From NCBI RefSeq assembly GCF_000511955.1, contig NZ_AZSU01000001.1:98596-162595 (forward strand): a DNA stretch of 64,000 nt, given 5' to 3'. The notes under the pieces are model-generated. The model saw only the letters and a list, made by a program, of their open reading frames with translations. It had not been told where the DNA came from and did not search any database. Made by a program: the position numbers and the translations under genes. This stretch comes from [Clostridium] ultunense DSM 10521 (GTDB lineage Bacteria > Bacillota > Clostridia > Tissierellales > Tepidimicrobiaceae). Positions within the stretch are counted from its first letter, which is position 1. The number at the start of each line of letters is the position of its first letter. Below are positions 1 to 27,024 of this stretch, piece after piece.

Positions 1-581
1 TAAAGTATAGTACAACCAATAGAGATGGCTATAGGGAGTATAAATCAGATCCTAAAATATGTATAAATTGCCCAGATATAAACAAATGCACAAATAGCAA
101 AAACCATACTAAAGTTGTTACCCGTCATATATGGGAAAATTATATGGAGGGAGTCGAGCATTTAAGGCATACAAGCATTAATAAAGAAATATACGATATG
201 AGAAAGGAAACAATAGAACGTGTATTTGCAGATATGAAAGAGAAGCATGGCATGCGCTGGACAACCCTACGGGGCTTAAAAAAAGTTAAGGCGCAGGCGA
301 TGCTTATTGCTGCTTGCATGAATTTAAAGAAGATAGCGAATTGGATGTGGAGGTCCAGGAAAAATGGACCAAATCCATCCAATCCATGCGTTAATATGCA
401 TGGTCTTTTATCAAATTTATATAGTTTTATTATTTGTTCATTAAGAAACACGGTTTCCATAAAGAAGGAAACCGTGTTTTGTCTACAAACTGAGGGAACT
501 CTCTATATAGAGAGTTCCCTTCTTTTTTCTTGGTGGATAAATAGTTTTTTAATCTTAACATGTAGTTCATACTCAACTTGA
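1..581 (+). CDS. IS1182-family transposase, C-terminal part (5' end outside window)
   Basis: The frame is open from base 3 and shows the C-terminal end of a DDE transposase. A cysteine cluster (CINCP, then a Cys about six residues on) is followed by the conserved stretch ETIERVFADMKEKHGMR and the helix AQAMLIAACMNLKKIANW, which are characteristic of IS1182-type transposases. The start and the first two catalytic acids lie outside the window. The reading frame continues through the hairpin at 446-479, which is common at the right end of this IS family where protein end and terminal inverted repeat overlap. It closes only at 581, inside flanking DNA, so the last 25 or so codons are probably not part of the original protein. 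The other IS end is not visible and activity cannot be judged. Confidence 0.75.
   Translation, partial: KYSTTNRDGYREYKSDPKICINCPDINKCTNSKNHTKVVTRHIWENYMEGVEHLRHTSINKEIYDMRKETIERVFADMKEKHGMRWTTLRGLKKVKAQAMLIAACMNLKKIANWMWRSRKNGPNPSNPCVNMHGLLSNLYSFIICSLRNTVSIKKETVFCLQTEGTLYIESSLLFSWWINSFLILTCSSYST
446..479. terminator. Hairpin at the right end of the IS1182-type element
   Basis: AAACACGGTTTCC (446-458) pairs with GGAAACCGTGTTT (467-479) across an 8-nt loop, 13 perfect pairs with a short T run after it. It lies inside the extended transposase frame and could be both a transcription terminator and part of the IS end. Confidence 0.6.
493..520. terminator. Perfect 28-bp palindrome, probable bidirectional terminator
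   Basis: AGGGAACTCTCTAT (493-506) is followed directly by its exact reverse complement (507-520) and then a T-rich tract. The stop codon of the reverse-strand small gene falls inside the stem. It separates the IS1182 remnant from that gene and probably terminates transcription from both sides. Confidence 0.7.
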
Positions 582-5871: not shown

Positions 5872-6842
5872 TGAGTGAAGTTTTATTAGAAGTAAATAAT
5901 TTAAAAAAATATTTTCCTATTACTAGGGGCTTTATAAAAAGCAAGGTAGGGGATGTTAAGGCTGTAGACGATGTTTCCCTATTTATTAAAGAAGGTGAAA
6001 CATTAGGTATAGTAGGAGAATCAGGATGTGGAAAATCCACTTTAGGAAGAACTTTATTAAGGTTATATGATGCTACAGCTGGAGAGGTAAGATTTAGGGG
6101 TAAAGATGTACTAAATGCGCCAAAGGACCAGATAAAAGAATTAAGAAAGGAAATGCAGATAGTATTTCAAGACCCTTATAGCTCATTAAATCCTAGGATG
6201 ACCGTATCTCAAATAGTGGGGGAAGCATTAGTTGAACATGGATTGTATAGGAAAGGAAAAGAATTAGATGATTATGTCGTAGAAATTATGAATAAATGTG
6301 GATTGGCTAGATACCATATGAATAGATATCCTCACGAATTTTCTGGAGGTCAGAGACAGCGGATTGGTGTTGCTAGAGCTTTAGCACTAAGTCCATCTTT
6401 TATAGTAGCAGATGAACCTGTTTCAGCTCTTGATGTGTCCATCCAATCTCAGGTTATAAACTTATTTACAGATCTGCAGAGGGAATTAAATATTTCATAT
6501 ATGTTTATTTCCCATGATTTAGGAGTTGTTAGATATATATCCCATAGGGTTGGGGTTATGTATTTAGGTTCTATGGTGGAGTTGGCAGATAAAAATGCTT
6601 TATTTGACAACTCAAAGCATCCATATACCCAGGCCCTATTATCGGCTATCCCCCATCCAGATCCAACTATGAAAAGGGATAGAATTATACTTGAAGGAGA
6701 TATACCAAGTCCAGCAAATCCACCATCTGGGTGCAAATTCCATACCCGATGTATGTATGTAGAAGATATTTGTAGGGAAGAGGTACCTGAATTTAGAGAT
6801 TTAGGAGGAGAACATTTTGTGGCGTGCCACCTGGCGAAATAG
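5871..6842 (+). CDS. oppF: Oligopeptide ABC transporter, ATPase OppF
   Basis: The 323-residue partner of OppD carries Walker A GESGCGKST, signature FSGGQRQRIG, Walker B FIVADEPVSALD and the C-terminal oligo_HPY segment CKFHTRCMYVEDIC. The start ATG overlaps the oppD stop by one base. Its own 3' end overlaps the next small gene, whose ribosome site lies inside the oppF coding sequence. OppD and OppF are expected to form the heterodimeric motor of the importer. Confidence 0.95.
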   Translation: MSEVLLEVNNLKKYFPITRGFIKSKVGDVKAVDDVSLFIKEGETLGIVGESGCGKSTLGRTLLRLYDATAGEVRFRGKDVLNAPKDQIKELRKEMQIVFQDPYSSLNPRMTVSQIVGEALVEHGLYRKGKELDDYVVEIMNKCGLARYHMNRYPHEFSGGQRQRIGVARALALSPSFIVADEPVSALDVSIQSQVINLFTDLQRELNISYMFISHDLGVVRYISHRVGVMYLGSMVELADKNALFDNSKHPYTQALLSAIPHPDPTMKRDRIILEGDIPSPANPPSGCKFHTRCMYVEDICREEVPEFRDLGGEHFVACHLAK

Positions 6843-7041
6843 AAAGCCAATTAAAGAACATGAAAAAGAAATAAAAAAAGAAGTGGATAAAAAACATGAG
6901 GAAGAGCCTTTTGAATTCACAAAAGAGGATATTCTAGCTATGATTATCGCAGGATACCGAGTGATAATGCCCATTGTTTTAATAGGAGCTTTGGTAATGA
7001 CCATATTTACCTATGTTTTTTTGAAATTCTATTTAAAATAG
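6817..7041 (+). CDS. Small single-pass membrane protein coupled to oppF
   Basis: The 74-residue product starts at TTG (6817), six bases after GGAGGAG (6804-6810), and overlaps the last 26 bases of oppF in another frame. Residues 1-40 are highly charged (Lys/Glu/His). Residues about 46-72 form one hydrophobic helix (YRVIMPIVLIGALVMTIFTYVFLKF). It is not a recognised family. The strong ribosome site, the overlap and the terminator directly after it place it as the last gene of the opp operon, so an accessory role at the importer is possible but unproven. Confidence 0.6.
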   Translation: MWRATWRNRKPIKEHEKEIKKEVDKKHEEEPFEFTKEDILAMIIAGYRVIMPIVLIGALVMTIFTYVFLKFYLK

Positions 7042-9319: not shown

Positions 9320-10600
9320 ATGGCAAAGTATGATGATAAACAGCTTCGTTGCTCTTTTTGTGGGAAACCTCAAGATCAAGTACGAAGACTTATTGCCGGA
9401 CCAAATGTGTTCATCTGCGATGAATGTATAGAACTATGTCAAGAGATTATAGATGAAGAGTTTATTGAAAGTTTTGATTATCAAATACGCGAATTACCAA
9501 AACCTGCAAAGATAAAAGAAACTCTGGATGAATATGTAATTAAACAGGAAAGGGCAAAAAGGGCTTTAGCTGTTGCAGTATATAATCATTACAAAAGAAT
9601 AAATAAAAAACCATCAAAAACTAATGATGTAGAATTACAAAAATCCAATATTGTTATGATTGGACCAACGGGTTCTGGTAAAACTTTACTAGCTCAAACC
9701 TTAGCTAAAATATTGAACGTACCTTTTGCAATAGCAGACGCAACTTCTTTAACAGAAGCTGGATACGTTGGCGAAGATGTGGAAAATATTATTCTAAAGC
9801 TTATTCAAGCTGCAGATTATGATATAGAGAGAGCTGAAAAGGGTATAGTATATATAGACGAAATAGATAAAATTGCCCGAAAGACAGAAAATCCATCAAT
9901 TACAAGGGATGTGAGTGGTGAGGGAGTACAGCAAGCCCTTCTTAAAATCCTTGAAGGAACTATAGCTAATGTTCCACCGCAAGGGGGAAGGAAACATCCT
10001 CATCAAGAATTTATCCAAGTAGATACAACCAATATTTTATTCATAGTTGGTGGAGCCTTTGATGGTATAGATAAAATAATCCAAAGTAGGGTAGATACTA
10101 AATCTATGGGATTTGGTGCTGAAATAAAGGGTAAGGAAGATATTAGGATTGGAGAATTATTAAAACAGATCCAACCGGAAGATCTATTGAAATATGGATT
10201 AATACCAGAATTTGTTGGACGATTACCTGTAATTGTCACATTAGAAGAATTAGACGAGGAAGCTCTTGTAAGGATATTAACAGAACCTAAAAATGCTCTT
10301 GTAAAACAATATAAAGAATTGTTCAATATGGATGGAGTAGATTTGGAATTCGACGATGAGGCATTGAAAGCCGTTGCCAAAAAAGCTATCGATAGGAAAA
10401 CAGGAGCAAGGGGATTACGTAGCATAATTGAAGAAACCCTATTGGATATTATGTATGATATTCCTTCGAGAGAAGATATAGAAAAATGTCTAATTACCAA
10501 AGAAACTATTGAATCTAATGGAGAACCAACATTGGTGTTATCAGAAAGAAAGGCTAAAAATAGAGCTAAGAAAAAGGATAACAAGGAATCTGCATCATAA
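9320..10600 (+). CDS. clpX: ATP-dependent Clp protease, ATPase subunit ClpX
   Basis: The 426-residue AAA+ unfoldase begins with the four-cysteine zinc-binding domain (CSFCGK at 11-16, CDECIELC near 34-41). Walker A GPTGSGKT follows, then the pore loop GYVGED, Walker [11 protein letters not shown] and the small C-terminal domain with sensor 2 GARGLRS. The IGF-type loop used to dock on ClpP should lie before Walker B, but I did not assign it residue by residue. The Lys/Glu-rich tail is normal. A terminator follows directly, so tig-clpP-clpX looks like one transcript. Confidence 0.97.
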
Positions 10601-19826: not shown

Positions 19827-20195
19827 ATGGATTTTAACGAAAATCTTCCAATATATATTCAGATTATGAATCTATTAAAGAGTAAGATGGTTTCGGGAGA
19901 AATTAGTGGAGGTGATAAATTGCCATCAGTAAGAGAATTTTCAAAGGAATTAAAGGTAAACCCCAATACAATCCAAAGAGCCTATCAGGAATTAGAGAGA
20001 GAAGAATTAGTTTTTACTCAAAGGGGAATGGGTACCTTTGTTACGGAGGATATAGAAATAATTAAAATGTTGAAAAAGAATATGGCTACAAATGTAGTGA
20101 ATAATTTTCTAATGGAGATGAAAAAATTAGGATTTAACTCCAATGAAATAATAGAAATTGTATCAGAATGGGTTGAAAAGGAGGAGAGAGAATGA
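19827..20195 (+). CDS. GntR-family regulator, YtrA subfamily
   Basis: The 122-residue repressor has an N-terminal winged helix (PIYIQIMNLLKSKMVSGEISGGDKLPSVREF, NPNTIQRAYQELEREELVFTQRGMGTFV) and a short C-terminal helix pair, the compact layout of YtrA-type GntR proteins. These usually repress the ABC transporter encoded with them, in response to cell-envelope stress. The stop overlaps the ATPase start by four bases. An inverted repeat at 19774-19799 is the likely operator. Confidence 0.9.
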   Translation: MDFNENLPIYIQIMNLLKSKMVSGEISGGDKLPSVREFSKELKVNPNTIQRAYQELEREELVFTQRGMGTFVTEDIEIIKMLKKNMATNVVNNFLMEMKKLGFNSNEIIEIVSEWVEKEERE

Positions 20196-21737: not shown

Positions 21738-21760
21738 AAAATCCCCTTTTTGGGGATTTT
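21738..21760 (+). terminator. Terminator of the first YtrA cassette
   Basis: AAAATCCCC (21738-21746) and GGGGATTTT (21752-21760) form a 9-bp stem with a 5-nt T loop and continuing T residues. Confidence 0.85.
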
Positions 21761-21777: not shown

Positions 21778-21822
21778 CCCGATTTGAATCGGGTTGCATA
21801 TAGGATTTTTATCAGGTATTAT
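21778..21822 (+). promoter_or_regulatory. Palindromic activator site 1 and promoter of the candidate signal-peptide gene
   Basis: The palindrome CCCGATT-TG-AATCGGG (21778-21793) abuts a -35-like TTGCAT (21794-21799), followed by 17 bp and a -10-like TATTAT (21817-21822). The same core GATTTGAATC, the same GGTTG step and the same -35/-10 spacing occur at 22823-22867. The bases flanking the core differ between the sites (C with G here, A with T there) but stay complementary. This placement is what a class II activator would use, and the adjacent HTH/TPR regulator is the obvious candidate. Confidence 0.65.
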
Positions 21823-21872
21823 TATGGTAAATAGAGCTTGTATATTAAAAAACGAATGGGGAGATAGAGATA

Positions 21873-22025
21873 ATGTTTGAAAAATTTTTATTTGCAATGG
21901 TTATTGTTCTAACATTATTTGTTATTGGATCCAGAGAACAAAATAATATACTTATAGCTGAGAAAGATGATGCAATAGAGTGGAATAATTATGAGATAGA
22001 AGATATTCAGCAACACCTTTTCTAA
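21873..22025 (+). CDS. Candidate signalling-peptide precursor (50 aa)
   Basis: A 50-codon ORF starts at ATG 21873, nine bases after GGGGAG (21858-21863). It begins MFEKFLFAMVIVLTLFVIGS, a short hydrophobic export-type segment, and continues with a polar acidic tail ending in EIEDIQQHLF. Size and layout match pheromone precursors such as PapR that work with RRNPP regulators. The last 74 bases overlap, in antisense, the 3' end of the regulator at 21952-22785, an arrangement known among Rgg/SHP-type pairs. A promoter with a palindromic site lies 50-95 bp upstream. Which part would be the mature peptide cannot be told. Confidence 0.55.
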   Translation: MFEKFLFAMVIVLTLFVIGSREQNNILIAEKDDAIEWNNYEIEDIQQHLF

Positions 22026-22785
22026 AGTATAAAAGATTTAATCCATTGTAATCCCTATGTTGTATACAATAGTCTATGCCTAAATCGGAGTACTTTAAGG
22101 CACTTTCATGGATATCAAGCCGGTGATAGGTATAGGATAAGTTATAGCATATTTTAGGATAAAGTTTCTCATTTGGATCTACTATTTGTATACAGAACTC
22201 CATTATTTCTAAGCTTTTTTCTGTAGATTCAATTTTATTAATTAAAAGAGCTATGTTCATTAGAATTCTTGATTCCATAGAACTGTAGATAAGGTTTTTA
22301 TAGTTATTTAATGAAAATTCAGGTGTAGTTATTTTCATAGCCGCTATTAATTTATCAAGCGCTTCATTAATTTTACTATATTTCTTATTTAATATTATGG
22401 ATTCTATTAATAATATAAGTTGGTTTATTAGATTGATGAAGTAAGTATTAGATTCAGTATGGAGCAAAGCCTTTAAATCATCTAATTCTACTGATAAGGT
22501 TTGGTATTCGTCTCTATCTATTTTAGATTCTAATCTATTTCTTATTTCTTCAAAGGCCTGATAATTATTTAGTCTATAATTTAGTAAGAGTTGGTTTAAA
22601 TCTTTTTTAAGTATAGGGGAAAGTAGGTCTAAAGTTTTTTGGATAGGAATTACTTTACCATTTTCAATCTTTCGTAAGGTATCTTCATGGATTCCTGACA
22701 GTTCACAGACATCTTTCTGAGTAAACCCTAAATTAGTCCTAATGCTACGTGCTTCTTCCCCGAAAGCCTGAAGATTATAATACAT
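21952..22785 (-). CDS. RRNPP-type HTH/TPR transcriptional regulator
   Basis: The 277-residue protein has an N-terminal XRE-type helix-turn-helix (about 8-62: EEARSIRTNLGFTQKDVCEL, HEDTLRKIENGKVIP). An all-helical C-terminal region of about 200 residues with TPR-like segments follows (CYNLSYTYHRLDIHESALKY, LYFRKGVAEYLLSHN). This size and layout match PlcR, NprR and Rgg regulators, which bind imported peptides in the TPR groove. AAAGGGG precedes the ATG. Its own upstream region contains palindrome site 2 (22823-22838), and a reverse promoter TTTACA/TATAAT (22892-22863, 18-bp spacer) lies beyond it, so autoregulation is plausible. Its 3' end overlaps the candidate peptide gene. Confidence 0.8.
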   Translation of the reverse strand: MYYNLQAFGEEARSIRTNLGFTQKDVCELSGIHEDTLRKIENGKVIPIQKTLDLLSPILKKDLNQLLLNYRLNNYQAFEEIRNRLESKIDRDEYQTLSVELDDLKALLHTESNTYFINLINQLILLIESIILNKKYSKINEALDKLIAAMKITTPEFSLNNYKNLIYSSMESRILMNIALLINKIESTEKSLEIMEFCIQIVDPNEKLYPKICYNLSYTYHRLDIHESALKYSDLGIDYCIQHRDYNGLNLLYFRKGVAEYLLSHNYSTLLHHLSQL

Positions 22786-22822
22786 AATATCTCAACCCCT
22801 TTAAATTAACCTTCAAAGCAAC

Positions 22823-22867
22823 CCAGATTTGAATCTGGTTGAAATTTCATTATTTAATATATATTAT
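22823..22867 (+). promoter_or_regulatory. Palindromic activator site 2 and promoter of the binding-protein/peptidase gene
   Basis: The palindrome CCAGATT-TG-AATCTGG (22823-22838) is followed at once by TTGAAA (22839-22844) as -35, a 17-bp spacer and TATTAT (22862-22867) as -10. A TATAAT at 22865-22870 is an alternative. The geometry is identical to site 1 at 21778-21822. On the other strand the palindrome lies about 38 bases before the regulator start codon, so one bound protein could act on both divergent genes. Confidence 0.65.
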
Positions 22868-22967
22868 AATAAAAAGGTTGTGGGCATGTAAAGATAAGGT
22901 TTCTTCAAATTAATAGTAACATTAGATTTTTTAATGATATTTTTTAGAAAGGAGAGCTATCAGTAAT

Positions 22968-25397
22968 ATGAACAAGACGAAGGTGATTACATTATTATTA
23001 ATTTCTATATTAATATTCATTACATTTGTATCAGGCTGTAATATAGTTGATACTTTCAAAGAAGAAAAACCTAATACGGAAAATACATTAGTATGGCATT
23101 TGTCATCAAGTAATGTTACTTTTTGGGACCCGCATTTGAGTAACAGTAGTGATGTGGTTAATATTGCACGTCAAATATTTGAAGGATTAACTGTTTTAAA
23201 TGAGGATGGATATGAATTAGGCGTTGCAGAAAGCTTTACAGTGTCTTCCAATGCCGAAGGGGTAGATAATACTGTATATACTTTTAAATTGAGAGATGAT
23301 GCTAAATGGTCAGATGACAAGGATGTAACAGCTTATGATTTTGAATATAGCTTTAAAAGAGCATGTGAACAAAAGGGTGATATCTCTGAAGTGTACCAAT
23401 TGTATATAAAAGGAGCAGATAAATATATAAATGGAACGGGTAGCAAAGATGATATAAGAGTAAAAGCATTGGATAAATATACATTGGAAATAGAACTTAA
23501 TGAACCAACTCCATATTTCATGGAAATTTTAGCAATGCCTCAATTTCTACCTGTGAGGGAAGATATAATAGAGACTGCAGGTGAAGGATGGGAAACAAAT
23601 CCAAAAACATGTATATCAAATGGTCCATTTAAGCTTTATTCATACGAACCTGGTTCCCATATTTTGCTATCTAAGAACAACAGCTATTATAATAAAAATG
23701 TTAAAGTATCATATGTAAAGTGTCTAATCAATACACAGAACAAGGATATAAATCTCATGTATGATAATGATGAAGTTCATATAATGAGGATATTCCCTTA
23801 TGGGAACATAGATGAAGAGTCTTTGCTATATTCAAATTATATTGGAACTTCTTACATAGTGCTTAATACTGATAAAAAGCCATTTGATGATGTTAACATT
23901 AGGAAAGCATTTGCTTACGCTATTGACAGTAAATACTACTGTGAAGAAATTTATTCAGACAGTATGCAAGCATATGGCTTTATACCATCTGATATAAAGC
24001 TTAGTGATGGTACTCCTATTGGAGAAAAACGTAAAGATGTAGATTATCTATTGAACGTTAGTTCAGAAAAGGCAAGGGAATTATTAAATATAGCAGGATA
24101 CAATGATGATTTTCCACAAGTTAAACTGACTGTAGATGATGAAAACTATGGAAACATTTTTAAGAGCATGCTTGAGAATAATTTGAACATTAAGGTGAAA
24201 CTTGAAGTAGTAACATTTGAAGAACTCATAGATAAAAGTAATACTGGTGATTTTGAAATGATTACCAACTCATGGAGAGCAGATTATAATGATTCTATGA
24301 CGTTCCTTTCTAATTTCAGTACAAACTTAAATGATAATAATTTTTGGTATAATCAATATTTCGAAGATGCAATAGCAAATTCTGCCGTAACTGCAGGAAT
24401 AGAAAGAGACGAGTATCTAATTGGTGCAGAGGAAATATTGATTGAAGAATTGCCCGCTATTCCAATAAATCATTACCGTATGTGCTATCGCTTCAATGAT
24501 AAGCTATTAGAAAATTTAAAGTGTGATGTATTAGGGAATTTAATTTTTAAGGATTGCATTTTACTTTCTGACAATATTAAAGTAAATGATATAGAAGGGT
24601 TAGAAAATGATGAAAATAGAAATATTTATAGATTTGATAATAGGAACAGGATTGAGGAAATAGATAAAAATGGTTATTTTGAAGACAGTGCAGGATATAG
24701 ATTTGATAAGTATATAGTAAGTGAGCATTTTGAACTATATTATAATTCAAACAATGAATTAAATGAGCTTTATGCTTCAAATTCTATCAAAACATTGGAA
24801 GAAGAATATGACAGAATATTAAGCTTCCTAGATGTAGATGAAGAAAACATGCCTGTTGTTAAAATCAATATGTATGATAATTATGAAGCTTTACGACAGA
24901 ATATAATCAAAGAGCAAAGTGTTGATTATGAAGATAAGAGCATAAATGTAGCGGGTTATGCTGGAAATAGCAATACATTTTATTACACCTGGAAGTATAA
25001 AAACGGAAAGGTTGGCAGGCTTGCGGAATTAGATACTACTGTATTACATGAATTTGTCCACAATGTGACAATGGCGTTAGCAAACGAAAAGCGTCATGAT
25101 AGTTGGCTTATGGAGGGAACAGCAATGTATTTGGCACAGCATAAGGATAGGCAAGAGCCCTACTACGATGAATTGCTAGAGCAGGGGATACCTGAAATAT
25201 ATACATTAAAAGTGCCCAGTGAGGATGTATATAAATACGGTTACAGCATGGTTGAATATATTGTTGAAACCTACGGTAGGGAAAAACTGGTTGAATTGCT
25301 AAGAGAATATGGTGATATAGAAAAAGTCTTGGATATTTCTGAAAGTGAATTCAGAGATGAATGGGTAGAATTTTTAAATGATAAAATAAATTATTAA
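22968..25397 (+). CDS. Lipoprotein fusing an oligopeptide-binding domain to an HExxH metallopeptidase
   Basis: The 809-residue lipoprotein has lipobox VSGC (Cys24). Residues about 40-545 form an OppA-type SBP_bac_5 domain (WDPHLSNSSDVVNIARQIFEGL, LRDDAKWSDDKDVTAYDFEYS, VNIRKAFAYAIDSKYY). Residues about 595-805 look like a gluzincin peptidase of the peptidase_MA type: HEFVH at 694-698 and a downstream Glu716 in WLMEGTAMYLA as third zinc ligand. Both domains would face outward. The fusion could bind and cleave peptides at the cell surface. The gene sits beside an RRNPP regulator and a candidate pheromone gene and has a copy of their shared palindrome at its promoter. AAAGGAGAG precedes the start. 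No permease or ATPase genes accompany it, so import would rely on Opp proteins encoded elsewhere. Confidence 0.85.
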   Translation: MNKTKVITLLLISILIFITFVSGCNIVDTFKEEKPNTENTLVWHLSSSNVTFWDPHLSNSSDVVNIARQIFEGLTVLNEDGYELGVAESFTVSSNAEGVDNTVYTFKLRDDAKWSDDKDVTAYDFEYSFKRACEQKGDISEVYQLYIKGADKYINGTGSKDDIRVKALDKYTLEIELNEPTPYFMEILAMPQFLPVREDIIETAGEGWETNPKTCISNGPFKLYSYEPGSHILLSKNNSYYNKNVKVSYVKCLINTQNKDINLMYDNDEVHIMRIFPYGNIDEESLLYSNYIGTSYIVLNTDKKPFDDVNIRKAFAYAIDSKYYCEEIYSDSMQAYGFIPSDIKLSDGTPIGEKRKDVDYLLNVSSEKARELLNIAGYNDDFPQVKLTVDDENYGNIFKSMLENNLNIKVKLEVVTFEELIDKSNTGDFEMITNSWRADYNDSMTFLSNFSTNLNDNNFWYNQYFEDAIANSAVTAGIERDEYLIGAEEILIEELPAIPINHYRMCYRFNDKLLENLKCDVLGNLIFKDCILLSDNIKVNDIEGLENDENRNIYRFDNRNRIEEIDKNGYFEDSAGYRFDKYIVSEHFELYYNSNNELNELYASNSIKTLEEEYDRILSFLDVDEENMPVVKINMYDNYEALRQNIIKEQSVDYEDKSINVAGYAGNSNTFYYTWKYKNGKVGRLAELDTTVLHEFVHNVTMALANEKRHDSWLMEGTAMYLAQHKDRQEPYYDELLEQGIPEIYTLKVPSEDVYKYGYSMVEYIVETYGREKLVELLREYGDIEKVLDISESEFRDEWVEFLNDKINY

Positions 25398-25690: not shown

Positions 25691-25800
25691 ACTTTTTAAA
25701 TTTTGCTAGTGCCTTTAGTTAGATAGGTATAATATTTGGATATAATATATAATATAGATAATACTATAGCAAATTATTTTCATATCAAATGGAGGCTAAA

Positions 25801-27024
25801 ATGGGGAAAAGATTATCTTTATCCATTGGCATATTTTTTGTTTTTTTAATACTTTTTATTACAATAATACTCATAAGTGAATATAGGAATATGGACAGAT
25901 TAAAAATAGAATACCCTAATATTCCAAAAGAAACCTATGATTATAGAAAATCCAGTTTAAAAATATGGGCTATAAATTTAATGCTTAAATTTTTAGTTCC
26001 TCTTTTATTCTTGACTACCGGATTATCTAAGAAAATAGGGAGTTTTGCAGAAAGCAATGGTAGGAATCTATTTTTAACCGGAATTATCTATGTAATATTA
26101 TTTTCAATAATCGACTTGTTGATTTCATTACCTACTAATTTTTATGGTGGGTTCATTTTAAAACATAGGTATGATCTATCCAACCAAACCCTATTTAGAT
26201 GGTTAGAGTTGACATTTAAAAGTTTTGCCTTAAATACAGTAGTATTTTCCTTATTTATATGGTTTCCCTATTACTTAATATATAGAAACCCTACCAGATG
26301 GTGGTTATATTTAGGGTTATTATCTATACCTGTTTTTGCTTTTATAACTTTTATCTCTCCTATGTATATAGACCCTATATATAATAAATATACATCCATA
26401 GAAGATGAAGAATTAGGAAAGGAAATAAAACAACTTTTAAAAAAAGCAGAAATAGAAGATGCAGAAATATATAAAGTAGATAAGAGTCGGGATACTAAAG
26501 AGATGAATGCTTATATGACAGGAGTTTTTAAATCTAAAAGAATAGTTCTATGGGATACCACCATGGAAAAGTTGGATAAAGATGAAGTGCTATCTGTTAC
26601 TGCCCATGAAATTGGCCATTATATAAAAGGACATATCTGGAAGAGTATAATATTAGGAGGCTTGTTTTCAGTAGCTTTAATGTACTTAGTACATAGGACT
26701 TCTAATTGGATACTTATCAATTCCAATGGAGTATTTGGATTTAATAGATTATATGATATAGCTTCTATTCCTTTAATTATCTTAGTATTAAACTTCTATA
26801 TGTTTTTCGCAAATCCAATAATTAATTTTAGCTCTAGACAGATGGAAAGGGAGGCCGATATGATAGAAATACAATTGACAAAAAATAAAGAGGCAGCTAT
26901 ATCTACTATGTTAAAACTATATGAAGGCAATTTAAGTATTTCTAGGCCGAGTAAATTATTTAAAATATGGTACCATAGCCATCCTACAGCAGAAGAAAGA
27001 ATTAAGTTTTTCACTGAATATTAA
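25801..27024 (+). CDS. M48-family membrane metallopeptidase (Ste24/CAAX protease type)
   Basis: The roughly 407-residue integral membrane protease has a transmembrane helix at the start, further hydrophobic segments, the zinc motif HEIGHYIKGH near residue 274 and the third ligand in EREADMI near 350. This is the Peptidase_M48 plus M48_N layout. ATG 25801 is preferred because GGAGG lies six bases before it; the ATG at 25789 overlaps that site. The gene ends at 27024, sharing bases with the stop of the converging sigma factor gene. In bacteria such enzymes are linked to membrane protein quality control, and the substrate here is unknown. Confidence 0.88.
   Translation: MGKRLSLSIGIFFVFLILFITIILISEYRNMDRLKIEYPNIPKETYDYRKSSLKIWAINLMLKFLVPLLFLTTGLSKKIGSFAESNGRNLFLTGIIYVILFSIIDLLISLPTNFYGGFILKHRYDLSNQTLFRWLELTFKSFALNTVVFSLFIWFPYYLIYRNPTRWWLYLGLLSIPVFAFITFISPMYIDPIYNKYTSIEDEELGKEIKQLLKKAEIEDAEIYKVDKSRDTKEMNAYMTGVFKSKRIVLWDTTMEKLDKDEVLSVTAHEIGHYIKGHIWKSIILGGLFSVALMYLVHRTSNWILINSNGVFGFNRLYDIASIPLIILVLNFYMFFANPIINFSSRQMEREADMIEIQLTKNKEAAISTMLKLYEGNLSISRPSKLFKIWYHSHPTAEERIKFFTEY

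Follow-up and report, generated by a model that had tools for sequence, protein, structure and literature searches.

Two palindromes flanking a PlcR-like receptor gene in [Clostridium] ultunense very probably belong to a peptide quorum-sensing switch

Genes and promoters at the locus

The window, by which we mean the whole stretch of DNA analysed, comprises 64,000 nucleotides of [Clostridium] ultunense DSM 10521, and the features discussed below are collected in Table 1. Two palindromes, each with 7-bp arms around a 2-bp core, bracket a gene read on the minus strand, and at both of them a -35-like hexamer begins at the next base and is followed, after a 17-bp spacer, by the -10 hexamer TATTAT (TTGCAT at 21794-21799 and TATTAT at 21817-21822 for site 1; TTGAAA at 22839-22844 and TATTAT at 22862-22867 for site 2). 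The base pair beside GATT/AATC changes from C:G in site 1 to A:T in site 2, with complementarity kept. A sequence-only reading of this DNA had described the palindromes, the promoter hexamers and the paired base change, and all proved exact when the coordinates were rechecked; the identity of the regulator, the pheromone open reading frame (ORF) and the overlapping receptor promoter go beyond it. Because a terminator-like hairpin ends the GntR/ABC operon upstream, site 1 is insulated from transcription arriving from that side.

Table 1. Coordinates of features in the window, with strand and basis of assignment
Feature	Position	Strand	Basis
Terminator-like hairpin closing the upstream GntR/ABC operon	21738-21760	unsigned	Terminator scoring
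Site 1, 16-bp operator (candidate), CCCGATT-TG-AATCGGG	21778-21793	+	Genome search; kept in relatives
Putative pheromone gene promoter, TTGCAT-17-TATTAT, -35 abutting site 1	21794-21822	+	Geometry count
Predicted pheromone precursor ORF, 50 aa	21873-22025	+	ORF list; homologues at like sites in relatives
RRNPP-type (PlcR-like) receptor/regulator, 277 aa, HTH_3 and weak RNPP_C, shortened C-terminus	21952-22785	-	Domain and profile searches
Junction of ~143-nt deletion; receptor side kept as far as about base 21998	21990-22002	unsigned	Alignment
Site 2, 16-bp operator (candidate), CCAGATT-TG-AATCTGG	22823-22838	+	Genome search
Putative SBP-peptidase gene promoter, TTGAAA-17-TATTAT	22839-22867	+	Promoter scan, exact coordinates
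Receptor's own putative promoter, TTTACA-18-TATAAT, 11/12	22863-22892	-	Sigma-70-like promoter scan, comparison with relatives
Lipoprotein-like SBP_bac_5 (OppA family) protein, 809 aa, with C-terminal HExxH Peptidase_MA-like domain	22968-25397	+	Domain search

The protein encoded between the sites scores above the cut-off for HTH_3; for RNPP_C it reaches 21.2 bits, below the Pfam threshold of 26.5, while RNPP_C is matched in seven of the 15 members of the receptor family. A profile of that family, searched against PDB profiles, finds PlcR as the best solved relative, aligned along its entire length (E = 1.5e-9); ComR and further regulators rank lower. At 277 aa the protein lies within the 250-500 aa of RRNPP receptors, which combine an HTH with a TPR-type RNPP_C domain, the latter being recognised here through the family members and sub-threshold in the window protein by itself.

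Tail-to-tail with the receptor gene lies an ORF of 50 aa (MFEKFLFAMVIVLTLFVIGSREQNNILIAEKDDAIEWNNYEIEDIQQHLF), adjacent to the receptor and of a length, between 10 and 100 aa, that is taken to define RRNPP precursors. It is preceded by an RBS-like GGGGAGA, has a basic, hydrophobic, signal-like N-terminus as judged by eye, and contains the conserved core KDDAIEWNNYE; homologues occur at the same kind of site in loci L037, L038, L039, L045, L069 and L070-L076. We predict that it encodes a secreted pheromone precursor, previously overlooked. In two of these loci the precursor carries tandem repeats, four copies of GEEDMIWLHSD in L071 (~6680-6892, minus strand) and at least seven of GEDDLIRLH in L074 (1-280, minus strand), where the contig end cuts the array; such repeats probably mark the mature unit, and their position matches that of the conserved core in single-copy precursors. 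That a literature search found no RRNPP paper on tandem-repeat precursors is a weak hint that they are new.

Among sigma-70-like sequences around the sites, the one that scores best is the promoter assigned to the receptor gene itself, whose -10 overlaps the forward TATTAT of site 2 on the opposite strand. Because this promoter lies at 22863-22892 on the minus strand, operator 2 would be located within the receptor 5' leader. Most loci with a divergent receptor have an overlapping reverse promoter of this kind, TTTAC[A/T]-17-TATAAT, with the two -10s 1 bp apart, and it is missing from the four sites with a convergent or remote receptor, which act as the control for this comparison (window site 1, L037, L038 and L039). 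Second copies of operator and promoter occur at L070 (6432) and L075 (3367, minus strand), where the reverse TTTACA-17-TATAAT is kept and no receptor gene adjoins, the L070 copy being followed by a pheromone-like ORF; they are probably duplications minus the receptor.

Downstream of site 2, the gene for the binding protein-peptidase fusion (SBP-peptidase) is its probable target. Close relatives of this protein are found in only a few Tissierellales genomes (64% in G069; also G073), and since G069 and G073 have neither such a site nor a full-length receptor, the link to site 2 is drawn from the window locus, and the fusion protein was rejected as a conserved partner of the receptor system. A role for it in capturing or trimming the pheromone is a guess. 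An M48/Ste24-like membrane metallopeptidase gene (25789-27024) lies 3' of it. Elsewhere the sites accompany other genes: in genome G045, the site at L037:12077 heads an operon for a radical-SAM/SPASM enzyme, a Cys-rich small ORF, an S41 peptidase and an ABC exporter, with the pheromone gene last; radical-SAM genes also lie downstream in L040 and L047, a further one in L066 being recognised by sequence inspection only; and in L038, L039 and L044 subtilase genes lie close to that of the receptor or the pheromone. As the sites of relatives appear to serve RiPP or subtilase genes, the SBP-peptidase would be one of several different targets. Small RiPP-precursor-like ORFs were seen beside the pheromone system at L037 (~10224-10430, minus strand; Cys-rich) and L043 (~60-210, minus strand; MKIINESKKVVGYDIQPQGTVACMVACAATCILAGG...).

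Rarity and geometry of the sites

In the whole genome of 3,216,692 bases, CCNGATTTGAATCNGG occurs exactly twice, both times at this locus, and across 249 genomes of the order the composite GATTNNAATCNGGTTG-N20-TATNAT has three matches, two of them the window sites and the third, in genome G246, adjoining a homologous receptor gene; its reversed control has none in the same 249 genomes. The earlier claim that the pattern is hard to obtain by chance is borne out by these counts, and the genome-wide search that had been proposed as a check yielded no scattered copies away from the locus. When three mismatches are allowed, composite matches in this genome fall to the control level, and the regulon here therefore probably consists of just the two window promoters. 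The next-best composite (G000:C3:326066, two mismatches), tried as a sign of a wider regulon, adjoins an oppositely oriented ORF and lacks a convincing site. A tRNA fragment was likewise considered and rejected: GATTCAAATC looks T-arm-like by eye, with a loop one base too short, and its conserved context is that of a promoter.

Among 33 homologous loci (394 kb), a palindrome with TTG at offset 0 and a spacer of 17 is matched 22 times, against 1.2 in shuffled sequence, although these are not 22 independent events, since the set takes in both window seed sites and some closely related genomes. Counts of the palindrome/-35/-10 arrangement in these loci peak at a core length of 2, and the other combinations of offset and spacer mostly hold 0-4 matches, the largest (10, at offset 0 and spacer 15) being one that we attribute to TATATTAT echoing the signal in a register shifted by 2 bp. 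A dyad operator that abuts the -35 in fixed helical phase to the -10, as this matrix of offsets and spacers describes, is the layout of a class II activator promoter, and on this geometry we assign the sites a putative regulatory function of that class.

Conservation and variation in relatives

Relatives of the receptor are present in 16 of 61 related genomes, the window genome included, and at 21 named loci of a species collection, for example in Tissierella, Caldanaerobacter subterraneus, Thermoanaerobacter and Catonella morbi. The order palindrome, -35, 17-bp spacer, -10 stands before pheromone-like ORFs in about 20 genomes and at most receptor loci, the same arrangement recurring in Tissierellales, Thermoanaerobacter/Caldanaerobacter and Catonella, and the ORFs behind the sites are short, hydrophobic at the N-terminus and acidic in a core that resembles DDxIEWxSY. 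Of the two genomes from the same genus, G001 has no such site at its receptor locus, the receptor 5' region and neighbourhood being changed, and a full-length receptor was not found in G002. In G006, whose contig begins close to the receptor, there is no convincing site. Receptors broken by stops, frameshifts or truncation were observed beside mostly intact operators at L066, L074, L076, L077, L082 and G055:C1:3532380-3533175.

Conservation of the palindromes in relatives, which had been named as a further check, is clear and includes compensating changes: the arms are of the GATT, AATT, ACTT/ACAT or GAAT type, and both halves are mostly altered together. In the recognition helix of the receptor (DTLRK39IE), residue 39 is K at each of the 15 listed sites whose inner arm reads ATT and R at all eight whose arm does not. 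Residue 35 is D wherever the arm is GATT or GAAT, and E at the two AATT sites; a single D, in L047, occurs among the ACTT/ACAT sites. ComR touches its GACA box through R35 and R39 (PMC5131891), which makes a code of this kind plausible; that arm changes track residues 35 and 39 as a two-residue code is put forward as a prediction, because phylogeny confounds the comparison and the assignment of several sites relied on geometry or visual inspection.

Proposed mechanism and alternative explanations

The reading that we favour, at a probability of roughly 84%, is that the RRNPP-type receptor whose gene separates the two palindromes uses them as operators in pheromone-loaded class II activation. 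The comparisons above show the anatomy of the sites, their uniqueness and conservation, the homology to PlcR and the family of pheromones; from sequence we infer binding, the direction of its effect, maturation and import of the peptide, and the role of the target as follows. A re-imported peptide pheromone would load the receptor dimer, which would bind the 16-bp palindrome against the -35 and recruit sigma-A RNA polymerase; from site 1 it would drive the gene for the pheromone precursor, giving positive feedback, and from site 2 the OppA-like binding protein-peptidase fusion, a possible aid in capturing or trimming peptides. As the promoters at site 2 share the same -10 in opposite directions, they should exclude each other; synthesis of the receptor would be the default state, switched off during the response. 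The sequence-only reading had pointed to a dimeric activator touching RNA polymerase: a dimer-type palindrome fixed relative to the -35, with a matching regulator encoded between the sites, stands, while activation and polymerase contact are presumed.

An operator touching the -35 can equally block polymerase, and RRNPP proteins include repressors (PMC4162386), so that the receptor might instead repress from the palindrome until the pheromone lifts it, in the manner of Rgg3 or PrgX. We consider this opposite sign unlikely, however, given an operator placed upstream of the core promoter and not over it, in fixed helical phase, and given that PlcR, the relative of known structure that comes closest, activates its targets (PMC2464732); moreover, several relatives have a poor forward -35 (TTTATT in L038 and L039), as expected of a promoter that depends on an activator. 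Far less probable is an action after transcription, with the palindromes serving as terminators or attenuators in RNA: both do score as terminator-like stems on the minus strand, but their tails there are not T-rich, site 1 has no gene reading through it on that strand, and the conserved direction leaves them 5' of the promoter and untranscribed, at a position fixed to the promoter and not to a reading frame. Assignment to another regulator, such as the nearby GntR-family gene at 19827-20195, is if anything more improbable still, for in distantly related species it is the RRNPP receptor, and no GntR gene, that accompanies the sites.

A different matter, compatible with the operator reading, is whether the system still works in this strain. 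Alignment with three relatives shows a single ~143-nt gap in the window that removes the end of the receptor gene and that of the pheromone gene: it joined the two at their 3' ends, with coding sequences that now overlap by 74 nt, left the receptor about 43 C-terminal residues short of its relatives, and altered the pheromone tail, which gained IEDIQQHLF. Because this one deletion changed both gene tails, present function here is uncertain and the system may be altered or failing. That it has decayed, with the receptor inactivated and the sites persisting as relics, is a serious contender to which we give somewhat less than even odds; it agrees with the broken receptors of relatives (open frames of 51 aa in L074, 202 in L076, 47 in L077 and 99 in L082) and with the G246 receptor, which is interrupted by stops, but in the window both palindromes and their promoters are intact, and the remaining receptor frame runs without a stop and keeps its conserved residues up to the junction.

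Relation to known systems

The nearest model for the favoured activation mechanism is PlcR-PapR of the Bacillus cereus group, with a small secreted precursor, a palindromic box, a sigma-A -10 downstream, autoinduction and Opp import (PMC2464732). The present system resembles it in its receptor of HTH plus TPR type (a full-length profile match), small precursor, palindromic box and downstream -10. It differs in the box sequence, CCNGATT-NN-AATCNGG, which always abuts the -35, whereas PlcR boxes lie at various distances from it (PMC2464732); in a pheromone gene that is divergent or convergent to the receptor and encodes another core; and in its targets, RiPP/subtilase genes and the SBP-peptidase, within a local regulon. 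With an offset of 0 and two genomic sites, in place of a variable box distance and a large, dispersed regulon, it is not PlcR proper, since box, fixed distance and small regulon all differ.

The class II promoters of Rgg2/3-SHP, RopB and ComR-ComS also carry their inverted repeat at a -35 of poor quality (PMC4162386), and Rgg/SHP controls radical-SAM RiPPs (PMC12445099), as several of the relatives described here appear to do. In contrast to those systems, however, the receptor here is nearer PlcR in sequence, the precursors look Sec-type, the -10 is common with the receptor promoter, and the taxa lie outside the streptococci. TprA-PhrA of Streptococcus pneumoniae likewise pairs a PlcR-clade receptor with adjacent peptide biosynthesis genes (PMC12700828; PMC10075063), and its pheromone and box would be expected to differ from those found here. 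As RRNPP_detector reported one candidate from Tissierellaceae, located next to a biosynthetic cluster (PMC10075063), a member of the present subfamily may already be on record computationally; the words palindrome, Thermoanaerobacter and Caldanaerobacter are absent from the main text of that paper, and a literature search found no report of RRNPP systems in Thermoanaerobacter or Caldanaerobacter.

Implications

Taken as a whole, the locus very probably encodes a peptide quorum-sensing switch, with the two palindromes as its control sites on the DNA, and this system probably represents a new, so far undescribed RRNPP subfamily. A more specific proposal, which we regard as tentative and rather doubtful in its entirety, is that the subfamily, spread over Tissierellales, Thermoanaerobacterales and Catonella, is a compact divergent switch in which a constitutive receptor promoter and a pheromone-activated promoter have a single -10 in common, with a residue 35/39 code, rewired in the window so that site 2 serves a binding protein-peptidase for capture or maturation of the pheromone. 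The analysis brings together a candidate receptor, its pheromone, operator and targets for a quorum-sensing family of anaerobes and thermophiles that has barely been noticed before and on which literature searches found no report. The recurrent breakage of its receptors provides a natural experiment on the loss of signalling systems. The strict promoter geometry would allow regulated genes to be found from sequence alone, apparently silent radical-SAM peptide clusters among them, and synthetic pheromone cores could switch such clusters on.
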